DNA of 41,872 nt from assembly GCA_029982755.1 (NCBI GenBank), contig JARRBR010000011.1:1-41872 (forward strand). The letters are read 5' to 3'. Below the pieces are notes generated by a model. The model did not search any database. It saw only the letters and a program-made list of their open reading frames with translations, and was not told where the DNA came from. Positions within the stretch are counted from its first letter, which is position 1. Every line of letters starts with the position of its first letter. Shown piece after piece: positions 3,555 through 23,118 of this stretch. This DNA is from Rhodocyclaceae bacterium (GTDB lineage Bacteria; Pseudomonadota; Gammaproteobacteria; Burkholderiales; Rhodocyclaceae). Position numbers and translations under genes: made by a program.

Positions 3555-3650
3555 GCACCGGGGCCTCCTGCGCCCCGCAGTGTCCCTCTGCCCGACGCCC
3601 CCGTCAGGACAAGCGAATCGCCCCGGCCCCAGCAGGCGCCGGCATCCTGA

Positions 3651-4304
3651 TCAGGCTCGCCGCCGCCCGAGACCGAAGGCAGCACTCAGCAGACCTACCG
3701 CCAGCAGGGCCAGGCTGCCGGGCTCCGGGACAGGGATGACCTCGGCCTCCTGTTCCGCGGGTCCATTCCCGCCCGTCGGAGCGGTCGGCGCGGGCACGCC
3801 GAAGAAGGCCAGTTCGCCCACCGCGTACTTGTTGTCGCCGGTGACTGCGCTGATGCGTGCATGGCGCGCAATGACGGCGTCCAGGGAAGACAGCCAGTCA
3901 TCGAGTGCGCCTGTGCGGCTGTCGAGGGTCTGCATTCCGCTGTCGTTCCCCGCCCACCCCAGGGGCAGCAGGAGCAACTGCGACCAGGAGATGCTGTCCG
4001 TCGAGATCTCTACCAGATAGCTGTCGTTGCCATCCACCGACAGCACCAGGTCATGAAGCGCGTAATCCTGGTCGAAGCTCAGCGTGATGGTCTTGCCGTT
4101 GCCCCTCCAGTAGGCGCTGCCCTGACCATTCCACGAACTGCCCTCAGCCGGATAGAGGCCGTCGGCGATCAGGGCGGAGCCGTTGCCGATCGGATTGTCG
4201 TTGCCGATGGCCGCGATTTCGGCCACTTGCACCGGGACGGGGGCCGCGACGGCAGCGGACCCAAGCAGTCCGAACGCAAGCACCACGAGCGTATTCTTTT
4301 TCAT
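3651..4304 (-). CDS. PEP-CTERM sorting-domain secreted protein, discoidin-like
   Basis: A 217-residue exported protein. It starts with a Sec signal peptide (MKKNTLVVLAFGLLGSAAVA). The last ~25 residues are a complete PEP-CTERM signal: the VPEPGS motif, a hydrophobic helix (LALLAVGLLSAAFGLG) and an RRR tail. Exosortase (EpsH/XrtA family) recognises and removes such signals, usually in bacteria that make exopolysaccharide or floc matrix. The body (SYLVEISTDSISWSQL, ARHARISAVTGD, YAVGELAFFG) resembles F5/8-type C (discoidin) carbohydrate-binding folds; this is a weak call. The start ATG 4304 is preceded by GAGGGG at good spacing. No exosortase or partner gene is in the window. Expression is probably RpoN-dependent (see the -24/-12 element). 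Confidence 0.88.
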   Translation of the reverse strand: MKKNTLVVLAFGLLGSAAVAAPVPVQVAEIAAIGNDNPIGNGSALIADGLYPAEGSSWNGQGSAYWRGNGKTITLSFDQDYALHDLVLSVDGNDSYLVEISTDSISWSQLLLLPLGWAGNDSGMQTLDSRTGALDDWLSSLDAVIARHARISAVTGDNKYAVGELAFFGVPAPTAPTGGNGPAEQEAEVIPVPEPGSLALLAVGLLSAAFGLGRRRA

Positions 4305-4341
4305 GTCATCCCCTCGGCCCATTGACGGCACTTATCCCGAA

Positions 4342-4356
4342 GCAACGCCCGTGCCA
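4342..4356 (-). promoter_or_regulatory. Sigma-54 (-24/-12) promoter of the PEP-CTERM gene
   Basis: On the minus strand this reads TGGCACGGGCGTTGC, a perfect match to the RpoN consensus TGGCACG-N4-TTGC, with GG and GC separated by 10 nt. The predicted transcript start (~4330) leaves a ~26-nt leader that includes the GAGGGG ribosome site before ATG 4304. RpoN promoters need an enhancer-binding activator; two candidate sites lie upstream. Confidence 0.88.
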
Positions 4357-11123: not shown

Positions 11124-13193
<2,070 letters not shown>

Positions 13194-13284
13194 AGTCCTC
13201 TCGTCTCCTCCGGGTGGCCTGGCCGCGATGCCCGCGACCGGCTGCCTCGAATTTCTGGGTTCCACGATTCGCAACGTAGCACTT

Positions 13285-13301
13285 GATCCGTCTCGCAACA
13301 A
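13285..13301 (+). promoter_or_regulatory. Possible distal enhancer site upstream of cytochrome promoter
   Basis: TGATCCGTCTCGCAACA keeps most bases of the 17-bp site TGTTGCGCTTCGGAACA seen at 17961 (TG.T.CG...CG.AACA). It lies 109 nt upstream of the -24 element. This is a weaker match than the sites at 14809 and 17961. Confidence 0.35.
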
Positions 13302-13351: not shown

Positions 13352-13368
13352 AAAATCGGCGCGGAACA
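13352..13368 (+). promoter_or_regulatory. Proximal enhancer half-site upstream of cytochrome promoter
   Basis: The right half CGGAACA is identical to the strong site at 17961-17977, and the next bases (AAGGCCCGT, allowing one extra A) also match. The left half has degenerated. The gap from its end to the TGG of the -24 element is 42 nt, exactly as at the SoxYZ-like promoter. Confidence 0.5.
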
Positions 13369-13410: not shown

Positions 13411-13426
13411 TGGCACGCCGATTGCA
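13411..13426 (+). promoter_or_regulatory. Sigma-54 promoter of the cytochrome/binding-protein operon
   Basis: TGGCACGCCGATTGCA is a full match to the RpoN consensus, with GG and GC 10 nt apart. The predicted start of transcription (~13437) gives a ~40-nt leader to ATG 13479. It also rules out an upstream in-frame start at 13410 for the cytochrome. Confidence 0.88.
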
Positions 13427-13478: not shown

Positions 13479-13943
13479 ATGAGGATCAACAAGGTGAAGA
13501 CAAGAACCTTGACGGAGACACTGCTGCGCCGACTCGCCCTCGGTACCGCCACCCTCGGCATCGCGGCCGCCGCCACCTTCGCCCACGCGCACGGCGACGT
13601 CACCCCGCAGGCGGTGGACACCTCCAGCCTGAAGCAGCTCGGCGGGGACTGGCTGATCGCCAACCCCTACCGCGACAATGCGGATGCGATCCGTATCGGC
13701 GACTCGGCCTTCAACCAGAACTGCGCGCGCTGCCACGGCCTGGGCGCGGTCTCCGGCGGCATCGCCCCCGACCTGCGCTACCTGGAGCGCGGCGACGAGA
13801 TGGACGAGTTCTTCATCGGCAAGGTGCGCAACGGCGTGACCCGCAACGGCGCGGTGTACATGCCGCCCTTCGAGGGCATGCTGACGCAGGAAGCCATGTG
13901 GGCGATCCGCGCCTGGCTGGAGACGGTCCATGAAGAACAGTGA
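13479..13943 (+). CDS. PedF-like periplasmic cytochrome c associated with PQQ alcohol dehydrogenase
   Basis: A 154-residue class I c-type cytochrome. The signal peptide is LALGTATLGIAAAATFAHAH. One haem site CARCH (Cys82, Cys85, His86) is followed by the Met axial ligand in AVYMPPF (Met128). It would accept electrons from the PQQ enzyme in the periplasm, as in the ped/exa systems. ATG 13479 is used; a GTG at 13494 with AGGA upstream is an alternative that still leaves a signal peptide. Its stop overlaps the next gene by 14 nt, so the two are coupled. It is transcribed from the -24/-12 element at 13411. Confidence 0.88.
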   Translation: MRINKVKTRTLTETLLRRLALGTATLGIAAAATFAHAHGDVTPQAVDTSSLKQLGGDWLIANPYRDNADAIRIGDSAFNQNCARCHGLGAVSGGIAPDLRYLERGDEMDEFFIGKVRNGVTRNGAVYMPPFEGMLTQEAMWAIRAWLETVHEEQ

Positions 13944-14778
13944 TCGCCGCCGCTTCCTGCTCGGCGCCGGCGCCCTTGCCCTGCTCGCCGCCAGCCCGGT
14001 GCGGGCGGCGGCGGCCGAGCTCGAGCTGCAGCAGGCGGGCACGCTGCGGGTGGCGGTGTACGCCAACTTCGCACCCTTCTCGGCGGCCGGCAAGGGCATC
14101 GACGTCGCCCTCGGCCGCGCGCTGGCCGAGCGCCTCGGGCTGCAGCCGCAGATCGTCGAGTTCCCGGCCGACGAGAACATGAACGACGACCTGCGCAACA
14201 TGGTCTGGCGCGGCCACTACCTCGGCCACAAGCCGGGCGACGTGATGCTGCACGTGCCGGTTGACGTGAATTTCGCCGCCGCCAACCGCCAGGTGAAGAT
14301 CTTCGCCCCCTATCACCTGGAGACCCTGGCGCTGGCGCGCATCGCCGAGCGCGTGCCGGCCCCCTCAGCCTCGGCGGCGGAGAGCTTCGCGGTGTTCACC
14401 CAGGAGCGCATCGGCGTGGAACTGGACACCCACGCCAGCGACTTCCTGCTCCACCTGATGGACGGCGCGCTGCGCCCCAACGTCGTGCATTTCCGCACCC
14501 TGGGCGAGGCCGCGGCAGCGCTGAAGAAGGGCGACATCGCCGCGGTCATGGGCACGCGCAGCGAGCTCGAAGCTGCGCTCGCATCCCACCCCGGCGTCGC
14601 CCTCGACACACTCGCCATGCCCGAACTGCGTCTCAGCGGCTGGCCGCTGGGCATGGCCGTCAAGGCCGACAGCGGCGCGCTCGCCGACGCCCTCGGCAGG
14701 GCGCTCGCGGACCTCCAGCGCTCGGGCGAACTCGCCCGCATCTTCGAAGCCGGCGGCGTCCGCCATCGCCTGCCCTGA
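13930..14778 (+). CDS. MxaJ-like periplasmic binding protein of a quinoprotein system
   Basis: A 282-residue protein of the extracellular solute-binding family 3 fold. The N terminus is Tat-like (NSDRRRFLLGAGALALLA, twin or triple Arg then a hydrophobic stretch). The core begins LQQAGTLRVAVYANFAPFSA and has ...KGIDVALGRALAERLGL, the usual amino-acid-binding-protein pattern. No permease or ATPase is adjacent. Binding proteins of this kind next to PQQ dehydrogenases (MxaJ/XoxJ) are thought to help the enzyme mature or bind its partner rather than drive import. It is co-transcribed with the cytochrome. It converges on the double-Cache gene across a large palindrome. Confidence 0.82.
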   Translation: MKNSDRRRFLLGAGALALLAASPVRAAAAELELQQAGTLRVAVYANFAPFSAAGKGIDVALGRALAERLGLQPQIVEFPADENMNDDLRNMVWRGHYLGHKPGDVMLHVPVDVNFAAANRQVKIFAPYHLETLALARIAERVPAPSASAAESFAVFTQERIGVELDTHASDFLLHLMDGALRPNVVHFRTLGEAAAALKKGDIAAVMGTRSELEAALASHPGVALDTLAMPELRLSGWPLGMAVKADSGALADALGRALADLQRSGELARIFEAGGVRHRLP

Positions 14779-14783
14779 GCAAT

Positions 14784-14837
14784 GGAACGTTCCGGAGCGC
14801 AACGAATTTGTTGCGCTCCGGAACAACCCATTGTTCC
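14784..14837. repeat. Nested palindromes containing an enhancer-like 17-mer
   Basis: GTTCCGGAGCGCAAC (14789-14803) and GTTGCGCTCCGGAAC (14810-14824) are perfect 15-bp arms around GAATTT. The right side reads TGTTGCGCTCCGGAACA (14809-14825), 16/17 identical to the site at 17961-17977. Flanking it are GGAACGTTCC (14784-14793) and GGAACAA-ccca-TTGTTCC (14820-14837). It sits between convergent genes, so it could be a terminator, but neither strand shows a T tract. Confidence 0.75.
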
Positions 14838-15698
14838 TTATTCCAGGTAGTGCCCGACCCCGATCAGCGAGCGCCCGTCGCGGCGCACGTAGGAGCGCTT
14901 GTGCTCCACCACGTTGGTGACCGGATTGCGCCAGACGTAGTCGACCGTTGCTTCATCCGCAGACTGGAGCTTGGCGACCATCTCGGCGACCAGCGCATTG
15001 CCCGCCGCGTCGCGCAGGCCGAGGGCGTCCGTGTCCGCCAGCGCAGGATTCATCCCCATCGCCTCGAAGCGGCCGCTGTCCATGTCCACCATGAACACGT
15101 AGAGATCGTCCCTGACGAACTCGCCGCGACGGTCGTTGAAACGCGCCGCGGCGGCGGCGTGGCCGTCGCTGCGCGCCAGCGCGACCGCACGCTCTAGCAT
15201 CGCGCGCGCATCGTCGGCGCTGGCGCGCGGTGCCGAGTACCCCACGCCGAGCACGTAGCTGCCGTGCTTGCGGACGTAGCTGACCTTGGGCTCGACCTTG
15301 TTGGTCACCCGGTTCAGCCACATGTAGCGCACCGTGGCCTCAGGGCTGACGCGGGTACGGTCGATCATCTCGCGGAACAGCGGGTTGCCGGCGGCGTCGG
15401 TGGTGTTGAGCACGGTGAGGCCGACCAGCGCCTCCGGGGCCGCGCCGCTGGCGTGATAGACGCCCTTGTCGTCGATCACGAACACGTACAGGTCCTTGCG
15501 CACGAACTCGCCCTTGCGGTCGTTGAAGGCGGCGAAGGCGCGCTCGGGGCCGTTCGTGTCCATGTACTTCACCGCCAGCTCGAACAGGGTGCGCGCCTCG
15601 CGCGGCGTGGCGCGCTCGCCGGCATGGACGGCGAGGCTGGCCAGGGTGGTGAAGGCCACCGCGGCCAGGGTCTTGGTCTTCGGGAAATGCTTCATCAT
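14838..15698 (-). CDS. Secreted tandem sCache_2 protein in the PQQ cluster
   Basis: A 286-residue exported protein made of a signal peptide (KTLAAVAFTTLASLAVHAGE) and two single-Cache-type-2 domains in tandem. Each repeat has the same order of motifs: AAFNDRKGEFVRKDLYVFVI / ARFNDRRGEFVRDDLYVFMV, then DAAGNPLF / DAAGNALV, then VRYMWLNRVTNKVEPKVSYV / VDYVWRNPVTNVVEHKRSYV. Cache domains usually sense small molecules outside the cell as part of chemoreceptors or kinases. Here there is no membrane helix, HAMP or output domain, so it is a free periplasmic binder. It lies downstream of the PQQ dehydrogenase on the same strand. The start ATG 15698 (second ATG follows) has GGAG upstream. Confidence 0.85.
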   Translation of the reverse strand: MMKHFPKTKTLAAVAFTTLASLAVHAGERATPREARTLFELAVKYMDTNGPERAFAAFNDRKGEFVRKDLYVFVIDDKGVYHASGAAPEALVGLTVLNTTDAAGNPLFREMIDRTRVSPEATVRYMWLNRVTNKVEPKVSYVRKHGSYVLGVGYSAPRASADDARAMLERAVALARSDGHAAAAARFNDRRGEFVRDDLYVFMVDMDSGRFEAMGMNPALADTDALGLRDAAGNALVAEMVAKLQSADEATVDYVWRNPVTNVVEHKRSYVRRDGRSLIGVGHYLE

Positions 15699-15884
15699 CG
15701 GGACTCCATGGTTGCAGACTTGCGCGGCTGGGGGATCGGTTCGCCTCGGGCTGGCGGCAGGTTCGAATCCGGCATGCGCCGCCGCGGCCAATGCAGTGCG
15801 GCCCGGGCGCTGCTGCGTCCGGGCCGCCACTGCGGGCCGTGGCACCGCCGCGCAGGCGGGCCACGGAACCAGACCCCAGCCGGA
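15699..15884. other. Gap between PQQ dehydrogenase and double-Cache gene, with a stem-loop
   Basis: This non-coding 186-bp gap contains a long imperfect stem: CAGTGCGGCCCGG (15794-15806) pairs with the segment 15819-15832 with one bulge, around a 12-nt loop. It could attenuate or end the dehydrogenase transcript, but no T tract follows on the minus strand. No -24/-12 promoter was seen for the downstream gene. Confidence 0.45.
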
Positions 15885-17693
15885 TCAGCTCTTGTGCAGC
15901 TTGAACACCCAGACGGTGCCGCCCTGCTCGAGATAGTTCACACGCTTGGCGACGTCGCCGCCCCACAGCGGCACCGCGCCGCCCCAGCCCGACACGACGG
16001 CCACGTACTGCTCGCCGTCCGCTTCCCAGGTCACCGGCGGCGCGATGACGCCCGAGCCGGTCTGGAACTGCCAGACCTCCTCGCCCGTCTTCGCATTCAC
16101 CGCCTTCAGGAAGCCCTCGGGCGTGCCGTAGAACACGAGGTTGCCGCCGGTGGTCAGCACCCCGCCCCACAGCGGCGCATTGTTCTTGACCTCCCATACG
16201 ATCTTGCCGCTCACCGGATCCACCGCGCGCATCGCGCCGATGTAGTCCTCGTACAGCGGCTTGATGGTGAAGCCGGCGCCCAGGTAGGCGGCGCCGCGCT
16301 TGTAGCTCACCGGCTCGTTCCAGATGTCCATGCCCCACTCGTTGGCCGGCACGTAGAACAGGCCGGTCTCCGGGCTGAAGGCCATCGGCATCTGGTTCTT
16401 GCCACCGAGGAAGGACGGCGCGTTGAACACCACCTTGCCCTTGCCGCCCTCGACCGCGCCGCCGCCCTCGGTGAAGGGGTTGCCGGGGCGCTTGGTGTCG
16501 TCGAAGATCGGCCGCCCGGTCTGCATGTCGATGCCCTTGGCCCAGTCGATGCGGGTCACGAACGGGAAGGCGTTGAGCAGCTTGCCGTTGGTGCGGTCAT
16601 TGACGAAGAAGAAGCCGTTGCGGTCGGCCTTGCCGCCGGCCTTCACCACCTGGCCGGTCTTCGGGTCCTTGTATTCGAAGGAGATGAATTCGTTGACACC
16701 GTCATAGTCCCAGCCGTCGTGCGGGGTGCTCTGGTAGTGCCAGGCGATCTTGCCGGTGTCGGGATCGATGGCGACGGTGGCCGAGGAGTACAGGTTGTCG
16801 CCCGGGCGCAGCCAGGAGTTCCACGGCGCCGGATTGCCGGTGCCCATGAAGATCAGGTCCACGTCGGGGTCGTAGTAGGCCGCCTGCCAGGTCGCCGCGC
16901 CGCCGGTCTTCCACAGGTCGCCCGGCCAGCTGGCGTTGGTCGTGCCCGAGATGCCGTTCTCGACCTTGTTGCCGTCCTTGTCGTAGGTGTAGCCCATGTG
17001 GCCCTCGACCACCGGGCGCATCCACACCATCTTGCCGGTCTTCGCGTCGCGCGCCTCGACCCGGCCCATGACCCCGAACTCGCCGCCCGACACGCCGGTG
17101 ATGATCAGGCCCTTGACGATCTGCGGCGCCGCGGTCAGCGAGTAGCCGGCCTTGTAGTCGTCGACCTTCTCGCGCCACACGACCTTGCCGGTGTCCTTGT
17201 TGAGGGCGACGAGCTGGGCGTCGAGGGTGCCGAAGATCACCAGGTCGCCGTACAGCGCCGCGCCGCGGTTGATGACGTCGCAGCAGGGCATGATGCCTTC
17301 GGGCAGGCGATGCTCGTATTTCCACAGCTTGGCGCCGGTCTTCGCATCGAGCGCGTAGATGCGGCTGTAGGAGCCGGTCACGTACATCTTGCCGTCGTGG
17401 ATCAGCGGCTGCGACTGCTGGCCGCGCTGCTTCTCGCCGCCGAAGGAGAACGCCCACGCCGGCACCAGGTTCTTCACCGTCTCGGGGTTCACCTTGTCGA
17501 GCGGGCTGTAGCGCTGGCCCTTGGTGCCCAGGCCGTGGGTGACGACCTGATGGGTGGTTTCCGCATCCCTCAGGATGTCCTCGTCAGTCACGCTGGCCGC
17601 CAGGGCGCCGCCCGCGGTGCCGAAGCCCGCGATGGCGATGGCGACGGCGCTCAGCATGGCGGGCAGGTGCTGCCGCCGGGTGTGCTTCTTCAT
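15885..17693 (-). CDS. PQQ-dependent alcohol dehydrogenase, lanthanide type (PedH/ExaF-like)
   Basis: A 602-residue periplasmic quinoprotein that oxidises alcohols to aldehydes. The signal peptide is [20 protein letters not shown]. An eight-bladed propeller follows with repeated 'D.KTGK..W' tryptophan-docking motifs. Vicinal Cys137-Cys138 ([10 protein letters not shown]) form the disulfide over PQQ. Metal/PQQ ligands are Glu205 (GGEFG), Asn287 (GTGNPAPWN) and catalytic Asp329 in GWDYDGVN. Asp331, two residues on, is the extra acidic ligand that separates lanthanide enzymes (XoxF, ExaF, PedH: D-x-D) from calcium enzymes. No haem domain is fused, so it needs a separate cytochrome (one is encoded at 13.5 kb). 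ATG 17693 follows GAGGAGTC. It is driven by a -24/-12 element 85-100 nt upstream. Confidence 0.93.
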
Positions 17694-17777: not shown

Positions 17778-17793
17778 TGCAATCGCCATGCCA
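17778..17793 (-). promoter_or_regulatory. Sigma-54 promoter of the PQQ dehydrogenase
   Basis: On the minus strand it reads TGGCATGGCGATTGCA: GG and GC are 10 nt apart, with a single change (T for C) from TGGCACG-N4-TTGCA. The predicted start is ~17767, leaving a ~74-nt leader. The enhancer-like site at 17961-17977 lies 167 nt upstream. Confidence 0.82.
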
Positions 17794-17960
17794 CAGCACC
17801 ACCGACGTGCGCCGGCGGTGCGGCGCAGTGCCAGCGCCGGCGCGGCCCGCAGCGAGGAGAGAGGCAAGCAGCGAACGCCGGCGCATGGCCGCCGTGACAG
17901 GGGCACGCTGCTCCAGCCGCAGCGCGAGGAGCTGTCCGCAACGGAGCGGCGGAGCAGAAA

Positions 17961-17977
17961 TGTTGCGCTTCGGAACA
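17961..17977. promoter_or_regulatory. 17-bp near-palindromic enhancer site between divergent promoters
   Basis: TGTTGCGCTTCGGAACA has two inverted half-sites (TGTTgCG / CGgAACA). It is 42 nt upstream of the -24 element of the SoxYZ-like operon and 167 nt upstream of that of the PQQ dehydrogenase on the other strand. It is thus placed to serve both as an upstream activating sequence, most likely for one of the two AcoR/BmoR-type activators. Confidence 0.7.
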
Positions 17978-18019
17978 AGGCCCGTCCGGCCGCAGCGGGC
18001 CGGCCGGGGCATCGCTCGC

Positions 18020-18035
18020 TGGCACGACGATTGCA
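18020..18035 (+). promoter_or_regulatory. Sigma-54 promoter of the SoxYZ-like/hydrolase operon
   Basis: TGGCACGACGATTGCA is a full RpoN consensus match. The predicted start (~18046) gives a ~54-nt leader to ATG 18100, which has AGGA seven nt upstream. Confidence 0.88.
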
Positions 18036-18099: not shown

Positions 18100-18912
18100 A
18101 TGAGACCACCCGGTTCGGCCCGGCGCCTGCTGGCGGCGGGTATCGCTGCGCTGTTCGCGTGCACCGCCGCGCCTGCCCTCGTGCGCGCGCAATCCGACGC
18201 AAGCCCGGCAGGGATCGCGGACCCGCTCGAGTCACCGCGCTGGGGCGACATGCGCAAGGCGTTCTTCGACGGCCAGGCGGTAGTGTTCGACCCCCGCGTC
18301 AAAGTCAGCGGCCCCGCGGTGGCGGAAGATCCGCTCAACGTGCCCATCACCGTCGATGCCAGCGCGCTGCCCGGCGTGGAGGAGATGATCGTGTTCGCGG
18401 ACTTCAACCCGATCGTGAAGGCACTGCGCTTCGAGCCGGGCGCGGCCCGCGCCAGCCTCGGCTTCCGGCTCAAGCTGCAGCAGTCCTCGCCGATCCGCGT
18501 CGCGGCAAGAACGGCCGACGGCACGTGGCGGGTGGGCGGCGCCTGGGTCACCACCACCGGCGGCGGCTGCACCCTGCCCTCGCTCGGCTCCGGTTCGGCG
18601 GAATGGCAGGAGCGCCTGAACGAGGTCCACGGCCGTCTGTGGCCGCGCATCGGCGGCGGCGAACGCCTGCGCATGCGCATCATCCATCCGATGGATACGG
18701 GCCTGGCCGCCGGCATCCCGGCCTTCCACATCGAGGACATCGTGGTCACCGACGCGTCGGGCCAGGTCCTTAGCCGGATCCAGCCACTCGAACCGGTCGC
18801 GGAGAACCCGAGCTTCACGCTCGACTTCGCTGCGGTCGCCCCCGGGGAACGCCTGCACGTCGGCGGCCGCGACAACAACGGCAACCCCATCGACGCCTGG
18901 GTGACGCGATGA
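18100..18912 (+). CDS. Quinoprotein-associated fused SoxYZ-like carrier
   Basis: A 270-residue periplasmic protein. The signal peptide is [20 protein letters not shown], then a SoxY-like domain (~45-160) followed by a SoxZ-like domain (~165-270). SoxY proteins carry sulfur intermediates on a Cys near their C terminus in a GGCGG motif; here the fused protein keeps Cys157 in [11 protein letters not shown] at the domain border. Fused SoxYZ-like proteins recur beside PQQ dehydrogenases, but not as part of thiosulfate oxidation. Their proposed role in a quinoprotein 'relay' is family knowledge without a firm mechanism. The gene overlaps the next one by 4 nt (ATGA). Confidence 0.86.
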
Positions 18913-20387
18913 CGCCCGCCGCCCCGCTCGCCCCCACGTGCGTGGTGCGCCCGCATCCACGACACCCGCGCCCGGGCCGTTTCCCTGTCGTCATGCGCTG
19001 GCTTGCCCGCGTGCTGGCCGCGCTGTCCGCCCTGCTCGCGCTGATCCCCGGCGCGCATGCCGAACGCTTCGACTATCGGCTCGAGCCGCGCGAGATCGCG
19101 CCCGGCGCCTATGTCATCGTCGGACTGAAGGAGGACTTCTCCTTCACCAACGGCGGCAACATCGCGAACGCCGGATTCCTGGTCGGTACGGAAGGCGTGA
19201 TCGTCATCGACACCGGCTCGTCGAAGCGCTACGGCGAGCAGATGCTGGCCGCGATCCGCCGCGTCACGCCGCTGCCGGTGGTGCTCACCCTCAACACCCA
19301 TCATCACCCCGACCACTTCCTCGGCAACCAGGCCTTCCCGCCCGCCACGCTGGCCGCGCTGCCGGAGACGATCGCCGCCATCCGCAGCGAGGGCGAAGCC
19401 TTCAACGCCAACATGTACCGTCTCAACGGCGACTGGATGCGCGACACCGAGGTGGTCGTCCCCGCTCGCGCAGTGGAACCCGGCCGCCAGCGCATCGGTG
19501 GCCGCGACGTCGAGCTGCTCGCGCTCGGCGGCCACACCGTGGCCGACCTCGCGCTCGTCGACCACGACACCGGCACCGTCTTCGCCGCCGACCTCGTCTT
19601 CAACGGCCGCACCCCCACCACGCCGCATGCCGACATCGCGCGCTGGCTGGCCGCGCTCGACGCGCTCGAGCGCCTGCCGGCGCAGCGCTGGGTGCCCGGC
19701 CATGGCGAGGTCGTCACCGACACCGCGCCGCTGCGCCAGACCCGCGACTATCTCGCATGGCTGCAGCGCACCATCCGCCAGAGCGCCGAGGACGGGCTGG
19801 ACATGAGCGAGGTGTTCGCGACGCCCATCCCCGCGCGCTTCGCCGCCCTGGCGCTGGTCGAGAACGAGTTCCGGCGCTCGGTCGCGCACCTGTTCCCGGC
19901 GGCGGAACAGGCGGTGCTCGAGGGCCCGGCGAGGGCGGACGAGGCGGCGGACGAGACCGCCGGCCGGCAGGCGGGCGCGGATGCCGGGATCCGCGTCCGC
20001 CACTTCACCGACGTCGACTTCTCGGACGTGCGCGACGCGCTCGCCGAAGCGATTGCAGCAGAAGGCATCACGCCGCCGGTGGTGAGCCATTTCGGCCACA
20101 TGCTCGACCGCACCGCGCCCGACCTCGGCCACGCGCGCGGGCTCTACGCCGAGGCCGAGATCCTCACCTTCTGCAACGCGGCAGTCGCTGCCCGCCTCGC
20201 CGCCGAAGCGCGCGAGCACATTGCGCTGTGCCCGCTGTCGATCGGGGTCTATGCCGAGCCCCGCGCCCCGCGCGAGGTGCGCGTCGCCTACCGCCCCCCG
20301 GGCATCGACACGCCAGGAGCGACAGCGGCGCGCGAACTGATGGCGCGGATCGTGAGGCGCGCGGCGGCCCTGCTCGGGCGCGAGTGA
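18909..20387 (+). CDS. Quinoprotein-relay zinc hydrolase (MBL fold) fused to a DUF302-like domain
   Basis: A 492-residue protein with two parts. Residues ~52-335 are a metallo-beta-lactamase-fold hydrolase with the zinc motif HHHPDH (131-136), GGHTVADL (His209) and PGHGE (His264). They match the hydrolases found with PQQ dehydrogenases and SoxYZ-like carriers. Residues ~362-470 look like a DUF302 domain ([47 protein letters not shown]). Ala/Glu/Asp-rich linker residues 340-360 separate them. A signal peptide ([22 protein letters not shown]) begins at residue 30, so ATG 18993 may be the true start. ATG 18909 is listed because it overlaps the upstream stop. Likely periplasmic. Confidence 0.83.
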
Positions 20388-20441: not shown

Positions 20442-22487
<2,046 letters not shown>

Positions 22488-22653
22488 GTCGTCTTCCTCC
22501 GGCTCCCCGGAAACGTGGTCCGGGGATGCAGTTTTATGGTTGTGTTCAAAAAAGTAGCACCTGCCCAACATTGAAGCAAATGCAGCGCCGCCTTTCAGGC
22601 CCCGGCCCGGCGGGATCGCCGCGTGGCGCGCTGCGCGGGGCTTCCGGCACGAC

Positions 22654-22668
22654 TGGCACAAGGTTTGC
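22654..22668 (+). promoter_or_regulatory. Sigma-54 promoter of the small repeat-protein gene
   Basis: TGGCACAAGGTTTGC has the GG-N10-GC spacing and differs from the RpoN consensus at one base. The predicted start is ~22680, about 79 nt before ATG 22759. No clear copy of the 17-bp enhancer site was found in the 165 nt between it and the divergent activator gene. Confidence 0.72.
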
Positions 22669-22758
22669 CTGAAAACAGGGCTTGTGTCATTCCAGCACAG
22701 CCGTCCGCACGCACGCACCGCGTCGGCGCACCGACCATCCACCGAGGAGGCGTTCGTC

Positions 22759-23118
22759 ATGCATGCCTGTCCCCTGCCCACCGACTCGATCCTGCGCCGG
22801 CACTTCGAGCAGCTCGCGTCCTCCGCCGGACTGCCACAACCGCCGCAGGACTCGATCCTGCAGCGCCACTACCGGCAGCTGCTCGATGCCCGCCTCGAAG
22901 CCAGGCCCGCCGCCGCGCCCGCCGCGACGCCCGCAGCCACCCAAGCCCAGCCCGCCGCGAGCCCGCGTCCGGCCCCTGCGCCCGAGGCGCCTCAGGTGAT
23001 GCGCAGCCAGCCCGCCCACGCCGCCCGCGAGCCCGCGTCGATGCCCGATCGCAACCCGCCGCCGGCGCCGGCCACGAGCTGGTTCAGCCGCCTGCTGGCG
23101 CGGATATTTGGCAGCTGA
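22759..23118 (+). CDS. Small protein with tandem DSILxRHxxQL repeats, unknown function
   Basis: Not recognised. It is 119 residues with no signal peptide. The N-terminal part has two copies of a 13-residue motif, PTDSILRRHFEQL (~7-19) and PQDSILQRHYRQL (~32-44). A long Pro/Ala linker follows (~50-105), and the protein ends in an aromatic/basic amphipathic segment TSWFSRLLARIFGS. This looks like two peptide 'hooks' and a membrane- or partner-binding tail joined by a flexible tether. ATG 22759 is preceded by GAGGAGG at ideal spacing; an in-frame upstream GTG-type start at 22684 would lie on the predicted promoter start. A sigma-54 promoter and its place in the PQQ cluster tie it to alcohol oxidation. 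Confidence 0.72.
   Translation: MHACPLPTDSILRRHFEQLASSAGLPQPPQDSILQRHYRQLLDARLEARPAAAPAATPAATQAQPAASPRPAPAPEAPQVMRSQPAHAAREPASMPDRNPPPAPATSWFSRLLARIFGS

Follow-up and report, generated by a model that had tools for sequence, protein, structure and literature searches.

The quinoprotein alcohol dehydrogenase exaA of Azospirillum brasilense is reportedly under sigma-54 control, together with a LuxR-type regulator, EraR. The gene cluster described here has a quinoprotein dehydrogenase under predicted sigma-54 control in common with it, and it is the LuxR-type regulator that sets exaA apart.

The ped cluster of Pseudomonas shares PedF, a solute-binding protein, a SoxYZ-like carrier, a SoxH-type zinc metallohydrolase and PQQ dehydrogenases with our cluster. 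It differs, according to excerpts of the source, in having the local regulator AgmR/PedR1, hybrid kinases and YiaY (PMC12997753).

For sigma-54 activators of the Clostridiales, dyads whose TGT and ACA ends are 10-12 bp from each other have been described for many members (PMC6615313). In excerpts from that paper, AdhR and AorR, which adjoin alcohol and aldehyde oxidoreductase genes, are among the activators of this form, and AcoR itself has a different motif. Another comparable activator is the alcohol-responsive BmoR of Thauera butanivorans, a sigma-54 activator with an inverted-repeat upstream activating sequence far upstream of the -24/-12 boxes. As excerpted, BmoR can be likened to the activator discussed below by description, but it serves an alkane monooxygenase promoter, with its site 193 bp upstream (PMC8899819). 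For such a cluster, a search of open-licence papers showed no described activator of this kind, which is weak evidence.

The DNA analysed here, called the window, is the whole stretch of 41,872 nucleotides of contig JARRBR010000011.1 from Rhodocyclaceae bacterium (assembly GCA_029982755.1). From left to right, the cluster has an aldehyde ferredoxin oxidoreductase gene, a ferredoxin-like ORF (labelled by eye) and the activator gene EBP1. This is followed by PedF and SBP (plus strand), Cache and PQQ dehydrogenase (minus), SoxYZ and the metallohydrolase (plus), a second activator EBP2 (minus), and finally a small ORF and formate dehydrogenase (plus). The features that matter are these:

11124-13193, minus strand: EBP1, a GAF + AAA+ (GAFTGA) + HTH_8 sigma-54 activator with helix SRNRLYRKL; start codon placed by eye
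13265-13281 and 13284-13300: R1, tandem dyads CGATTCGCAACGTAGCA and TGATCCGTCTCGCAACA, 19 bp centre to centre, overlapping the EBP1 sigma-70-like promoter
13273-13301, minus strand: EBP1 sigma-70-like promoter, TTGTTG-17-TACGTT, with TGC ahead of the -10
13411-13425, plus strand: sigma-54 promoter of the PedF-SBP operon
13479-13943, plus strand: cytochrome c-550 PedF (TIGR04494)
13930-14778, plus strand: family 3 solute-binding protein (SBP)
14788-14804 and 14809-14825: R2, inverted dyad pair between the convergent SBP and Cache genes, with no U-tract here
14838-15845, minus strand: sCache_2 domain protein
15885-17693, minus strand: PQQ-dependent dehydrogenase
17793-17779, minus strand: promoter of the sigma-54 type for the PQQ dehydrogenase-Cache operon, TGGCATGGCGATTGC, with one mismatch
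17940-17956: R3 weak neighbour site AACGGAGCGGCGGAGCA, 21 bp from the main dyad, read by eye
17961-17977: main dyad of R3, TGTTGCGCTTCGGAACA, with divergent sigma-54 promoters on its two sides; predicted upstream activating site for EBP1
18020-18034, plus strand: sigma-54 promoter TGGCACGACGATTGC (TGGCAC-N5-TTGC type) of the SoxYZ-SoxH operon, 42 nt past the dyad
18100-18912, plus strand: quinoprotein dehydrogenase-associated SoxYZ-like carrier (TIGR04557)
18909-20387, plus strand: quinoprotein relay system zinc metallohydrolase 1, SoxH-type (TIGR04558)
20442-22487, minus strand: EBP2, second activator, with helix SRNTLYRKL; start codon placed by eye
22543-22578: R4, tandem dyads 19 bp apart at the promoter of EBP2, ahead of the formate dehydrogenase box
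22654-22668: sigma-54 box directed towards the formate dehydrogenase genes

The dyad at 17961-17977 is probably an EBP1 enhancer site that drives both flanking sigma-54 operons, with EBP1 also acting at R1. With the Clostridiales sites, as far as these are excerpted, it has in common a TGT-N11-ACA-type dyad upstream of -24/-12 boxes (PMC6615313). Unlike them, it is found in a Gram-negative PQQ alcohol-oxidation cluster as one dyad between two divergent promoters, and it has a TGTTSCG half-site that goes with an arginine in the recognition helix.

Some further features of the window were seen along the way. The small ORF between EBP2 and formate dehydrogenase (22684-23118, plus) is by eye conserved in several relatives and has TDSIL-RHF/RHY-like stretches near its N-terminus; it has no Pfam or NCBIfam match at E 0.001. 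An exact TGGCAC-N5-TTGC also lies at 4342-4356 (minus), just upstream of ORF 3651-4331.

A conserved dyad between two divergent promoters

The main R3 dyad TGTTGCGCTTCGGAACA lies in a spacer of 406 bp, with the PQQ-dependent dehydrogenase gene (minus) on one side and the SoxYZ-like carrier gene (plus) on the other. Counted by eye, 6 of its 8 base pairs are symmetric. The preliminary description had called it a 17-bp near-palindrome between divergent sigma-54 promoters, which is borne out by the boxes at 18020 (plus) and 17793 (minus). It had also placed the end of the dyad 42 nt ahead of the 18020 -24 box, and in this genome that is where it is. The dyad, TGT-N11-ACA at 42 nt ahead of a -24 box, fits the form of a bEBP upstream activating sequence. 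The neighbour site is weak in this genome and better formed in some relatives (TGTGGCGCTGGAGCACA in G026).

The dyad is real, conserved and above chance. Within the window, the exact 17-mer is found in 3 places at up to 3 mismatches, where 0.18 are expected, and none of 100 shuffled windows reaches 3 places. Across the whole genome (3.24 Mb, 86% complete), the strict form TGTTSCG-N3-CGSAACA is matched exactly at 2 places, 17961 and 14809, both in this cluster, and the reversed control has none. At one mismatch there are 6 places genome-wide, 3 of them in the cluster (13284, 14809 and 17961), and at up to 2 mismatches there are 27, versus 6 for the control. Both the exact place at 14809-14825 and a further copy at 14788-14804 were absent from the preliminary description.

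The one-mismatch matches elsewhere in the genome were set aside. For C3:4003 and C169:3535, no sigma-54 box was seen within the 3 kb examined. C169:15598 does have a sigma-54 box, but it adjoins another activator-like ORF, one that is 27-30% identical to EBP1 or EBP2 across some 200 aa, and it was not counted for EBP1. A dyad beside another activator-like ORF means that this form of site is not exclusive to EBP1.

The comparison set is the orthologous cluster, whole or partial, from 14 further same-genus genomes. R3 is readable in 12 of the 13 same-genus genomes that have EBP1, this genome included, and in all 12 the dyad is there. Scored on TGYTNC-N5-GNARCA, it gets 10/10 in eleven clusters and 9 in G004. 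The gaps between this dyad and the -24 boxes on the SoxYZ and dehydrogenase sides are as follows, in nt:

G000 42/167; G008 42/166; G009 41/167; G010 41/165
G005 53/96; G015 41/167; G027 51/96; G004 76/84
G007 73/84; G026 64/83; G019 53/83; G020 64/83

In G020, the 64 nt on the SoxYZ side are measured to a box for which the gene cannot be checked, since the contig ends short of SoxYZ and the genome has no SoxYZ match. Given that the dyad is constant and the gaps are variable, it is the site that is constrained and not the spacing. The fixed spacing of 42 nt claimed earlier fails, as the gap from dyad to SoxYZ ranges over 40-76 nt across two genera. Which promoter the R3 site favours may differ between clades.

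The claim of a fixed spacing also involved a half-matching site at the cytochrome promoter, CGGAACA at 13362-13368 (plus). The stated 42 nt from its end to the cytochrome -24 box are correct, but for this genome alone. CGGAACA is found at this position in 1 of 11 readable clusters; the other 10 differ, the nearest being CCGGACA in G008. With 1 in 11, and with variable gaps, the half-site and its fixed spacing are judged to be a coincidence. Absence or random placement in relatives had been named as what would count against the sites: the one at 17961 survives this check, and the half-site at 13362 is refuted by it.

Three clusters that lack EBP1 (G003, G013 and G016) keep both sigma-54 boxes, the one on the dehydrogenase side in some form, and not one of them has an R3 dyad scoring at least 9. 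Four more EBP1-less clusters (G001, G002, G017 and G023) were left out of the R3 count because there the dehydrogenase and SoxYZ are not divergent neighbours.

Strict motif matches are found in 12 of the 29 same-genus genomes. Some of these, in G024, G007, G019 (C11) and G020 (C215), were dropped: they lie inside the start of one conserved coding sequence, by eye that of an EngB/YihA-like GTPase. For G024 and G007 these are the sole strict matches, while G019 and G020 each have one such extra match. After this, the cluster contains an exact match in 10 genomes, and one that is a single base off in G004 and G007.

Perfect dyads number 28 in the 12 clusters versus 0.45 in dinucleotide shuffles, and dyads scoring at least 9 number 49 versus 13.9, ratios that overstate the evidence because the pattern was derived from the same sequences and the genomes are related. 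All but one of the 28 perfect dyads lie in R2 or R3 (27; the other is in G026), and 5 of the 49 fall outside R1-R4. A second genus is a fairer test than the shuffle ratio.

The wider survey covered 199 family genomes from 68 genera, 193 of them outside the genus. The strict motif occurs in 15 of the 199. Out of genus this is 12 of 193, versus 6 with a control match, which is near chance. One of these matches, in G144 from another genus, lies exactly in R3, flanked by PQQ dehydrogenase and SoxYZ and with sigma-54 boxes on both sides. The other 11 out-of-genus loci, scanned for dyads and boxes only, show nothing comparable.

G087, a congener of G144, has the best EBP1 match outside the genus (68%). 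Its gene order is AFOR-ferredoxin-EBP1/PedF-SBP/dehydrogenase/SoxYZ-SoxH, without the Cache gene, and both its R1 (105 nt ahead of the PedF -24) and its R3 contain a 10/10 dyad. The R3 dyad is thus found in 2 of 2 genomes of the second genus. From the coordinates, the R3 gaps in both are 40 nt to SoxYZ and 60 nt to the dehydrogenase, and each has one further 9/10 dyad. No EBP1 was seen in G144, a genome that is 52% complete; single absences are weak evidence as completeness ranges from 52 to 100%.

A near-palindrome of 17 bp is a frequent shape for an operator. The dyad could be the site of another kind of regulator, a repressor or a global factor, that is in this cluster by chance. This is very improbable, since the same type of dyad is found at the EBP1 promoter (R1), of the 13 same-genus genomes with EBP1, 12 have the dyad as well, and in two genera the dyad sits between two conserved sigma-54 boxes.

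Separately, a few dyads were noted at other loci. The Cache gene of G026 is split from PQQ dehydrogenase by other genes and has its own upstream dyad (L017 1501-1517), with no sigma-54 box by strict scan. In L213, a dyad TGTTCCCATTCGGAACA at 3599-3615 and a sigma-54-like box at 3691-3705 precede what is by eye a substrate-binding-protein-like gene. This dyad adjoins an activator-like ORF, and G007 (L218) has a similar arrangement. In L265 and L266, from two genomes of another genus, TGTTCCGCAGCGGAACA lies about 580-590 bp from a TGCTCC-N5-GGAGCA dyad, and the scan gave no sigma-54 boxes.

The two activators, their promoters and their helices

EBP1 consists of an N-terminal GAF region, an AAA+ sigma-54 interaction domain and a C-terminal Fis-type HTH. 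Its domain matches are PF00158 (5.1e-64), PF01590 (1.1e-11) and PF02954 (9e-12), the motifs GAFTGA and GESGVGKE are present, and among the matches listed there is no NCBIfam match that reaches its curated cut-off. The AcoR-type label is that of the preliminary description and reflects domain make-up only. EBP2 likewise has an AAA+ sigma-54 domain, a Fis-type HTH and GAFTGA. Sigma-54 itself (rpoN) is encoded in the genome.

Orthologs of EBP1 (at least 78% identity) are found in 13 of the 29 same-genus genomes: the 12 with the R3 dyad and G024, where no SoxYZ match was found. G007, a genome 99% complete, and G019, one 77% complete, have no EBP2 in the cluster. Genome-wide, G007 has no EBP2-like match at the threshold used, just EBP1 and a 56% paralog. 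Because both these clusters keep the R3 dyad without EBP2, and because none of the 16 same-genus genomes without EBP1 has the strict motif, EBP1 is the better candidate of the two. The activator had earlier been left as one of two AcoR/BmoR-like proteins, a choice that these genomes narrow.

It might still be EBP2, or both activators, that bind the 17961 dyad. EBP2 adjoins the SoxH gene, is about 62% identical to EBP1 with a very similar helix, and has own-promoter dyads of the same general form. We consider this improbable, given the R3 dyads of G007 and G019 and given that the EBP2 sites at 22543-22578 contain no TGTTSCG half-site. The best reading of EBP2 is that it serves formate dehydrogenase.

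With EBP1 as the candidate, the earlier proposal of a shared activator and a small RpoN regulon of cytochrome, binding protein, PQQ dehydrogenase, SoxYZ-like carrier and hydrolase gains from the conservation of promoters and dyads. The reason given for it, a 42-nt match, is wrong at the cytochrome promoter.

At that promoter it is R1 that is conserved. The tandem pair is kept in 11 of 11 readable same-genus clusters, and its nearer dyad is 110 nt from the PedF -24 box here and 106-113 nt across the 11. The layout of the EBP1 sigma-70-like promoter is likewise present in 11 of 11 same-genus EBP1 upstream regions; a generic promoter scan does not list it. The conservation of R1 could partly reflect this promoter. 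The overlap suggests that EBP1 may limit its own synthesis while activating PedF.

The EBP2 dyads also lie over a sigma-70-like promoter, and EBP2 and the formate dehydrogenase box look like a parallel activator unit.

The tandem layout is not limited to the genus. In the upstream regions of out-of-genus EBPs (L238-L254), a dyad pair scoring at least 17/20 is found at exactly 19 bp in 13 of the 13 loci that could be oriented, out of 15. No such pair is found there at any other spacing from 14 to 30. The pattern used was fixed beforehand, from the same-genus analysis. L242 and L243, which are outside the 13 loci counted, both have dyads 19 bp apart. For the distant paralog group c, the script did not show a 19-bp pair, and it misplaced some gene starts in doing so. 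The conservation of the pair may in part be that of the EBP promoter itself.

The recognition helix reads SRNRLYRKL in 10 of 10 same-genus EBP1 proteins with a readable C-terminus, and in G087. In 27 other same-genus EBPs it reads RNT. In a tree, the 10 EBPs with the arginine form one clade (support 100/100), and of the 15 out-of-genus EBP loci that were read, G087 is the only one to have it. A set of 80 EBP loci from named genomes, too coarse for sites, contains nothing closely related (54% at best), and none of the helices that could be read there is of the Arg type. The Arg/Thr residue presumably faces the DNA, going by structures of Fis-type HTH domains.

Sites differ along with the helix. 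The 26 EBP1-type sites chosen (13 distinct) are 12 first own-promoter dyads and 14 R3 dyads, with the helix itself not seen in 3 of the latter (G015, G020 and G144). The 24 Thr-type sites (20 distinct) are first own-promoter dyads, picked as the best 19-bp pair scoring at least 16. A T at position 3 is found in 25 of the 26 EBP1-type sites versus 0 of the 24 Thr-type sites, and G7 with C11 in 26 of 26 versus 4 of 24. The second own-promoter dyad of EBP1 starts with TGC in 12 of the 12 read. Since the Thr-type sites were chosen by score and the Arg type arose once, the match of helix and site is a correlation that goes back to a single origin. Shared history could account for both having changed.

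The inverted dyad pair at R2

The R2 pair is present in 12 of 12 same-genus clusters; its dyads are spaced by 21 bp in seven of them and by 19 bp in the other five. Five clusters have R2 dyads of the TGC type, so the preference of the R3 site is not shown there. In the second genus, R2 lies 3' of SBP and is a hairpin in which one dyad is complete and the other, at spacing 16, is degenerate.

R2 folds into a strong hairpin (-37.8 kcal/mol, z -9.8), and 4-5 of the 5 core positions between the dyads pair in 10 of the 12 clusters. A U-tract is absent on both strands in 11 of 12; in G004, the exception, a dyad is followed by TTTTTT. In G020 and G026 there is another hairpin, distinct from this one, that has a T-run. 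A hairpin without U-tract does not make an intrinsic terminator, and R2 is not in the terminator scan list either. A generic terminator repeat was also considered and rejected: TGCTCC-N5-GGAGCA, which is the form of the five clusters or close to it, is rare beyond R2, with 9 places outside versus 7 inside in 29 genomes.

The stability of this hairpin, its core pairing, and the second-genus hairpin with one full dyad only would all fit a dyad family whose primary nature is that of an RNA hairpin or terminator motif, with 14788-14825 as the example, and whose likeness to activator sites is secondary. Yet the dyads of R3 and R1 lie in promoter regions, next to -24/-12 boxes, and the U-tract is lacking in all clusters except G004, which makes such an origin of the family extremely unlikely.

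For R2 itself, activator binding, as a downstream enhancer or a roadblock, and a plain 3' hairpin are about equally probable. A sigma-54 enhancer beyond the end of a gene is described, in the part of the source available, for rocG of B. subtilis (PMC4941409). The likeness of this downstream activating sequence to R2 is that of an enhancer past the gene end, as R2 might be. R2 differs from what is excerpted there in lying between two convergent operons and in also being a strong hairpin.

How EBP1 may act, and what it means

The proposed mechanism builds on what can be read from the DNA: dyads, promoters, conservation, co-occurrence with EBP1 and the difference in the helix. Binding, looping, activation, autorepression and signal are inferred. 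EBP1 dimers would bind TGT-N11-ACA dyads through the Fis-type helix and assemble on R3. By DNA looping and ATP hydrolysis, EBP1 would then open sigma-54 RNA polymerase at both flanking promoters, leading to PQQ dehydrogenase-Cache transcription leftward and SoxYZ-SoxH rightward. A point against an enhancer is that looping would have little room in the 42 nt up to the SoxYZ -24 box.

On 13265-13300, EBP1 would activate the PedF cytochrome-SBP promoter 110 nt away. It would also cover its own sigma-70-like promoter there, and so limit its own synthesis. The N-terminal GAF region may be what senses the signal, which could be an alcohol or an aldehyde.

A more ambitious version can be drawn up, in which R1, R3 and R2 form one EBP1 enhancer island, R2 being a downstream enhancer or a protein-gated end-point, and in which the change in the helix insulates EBP1 from EBP2. 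Two convergent sigma-54 operons, with promoters roughly 1.4 kb and 3 kb away, would then share R2. In the recognition helix, one Thr-to-Arg substitution would have re-tuned the preferred site from TGC... to TGTTNCG, insulating EBP1 from the 62%-identical EBP2. Taken as a whole this is doubtful, and the second own-promoter dyad of EBP1 and the five R2 pairs, all of the TGC type, have lowered its probability.

The form of the activator site is already known; the correlation of helix and site, and R2, are the parts that a specialist might follow. What the predicted pair of EBP1 and its dyads offers is a concrete activator-site pair for a PQQ alcohol-oxidation cluster that is flanked by an aldehyde ferredoxin oxidoreductase-type gene and formate dehydrogenase. 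The 19-bp tandem rule at the activators' own promoters may help locate sites for other members. The two paralogs, neighbours whose helices differ slightly and whose sites differ too, amount to a small natural experiment on the avoidance of cross-talk.
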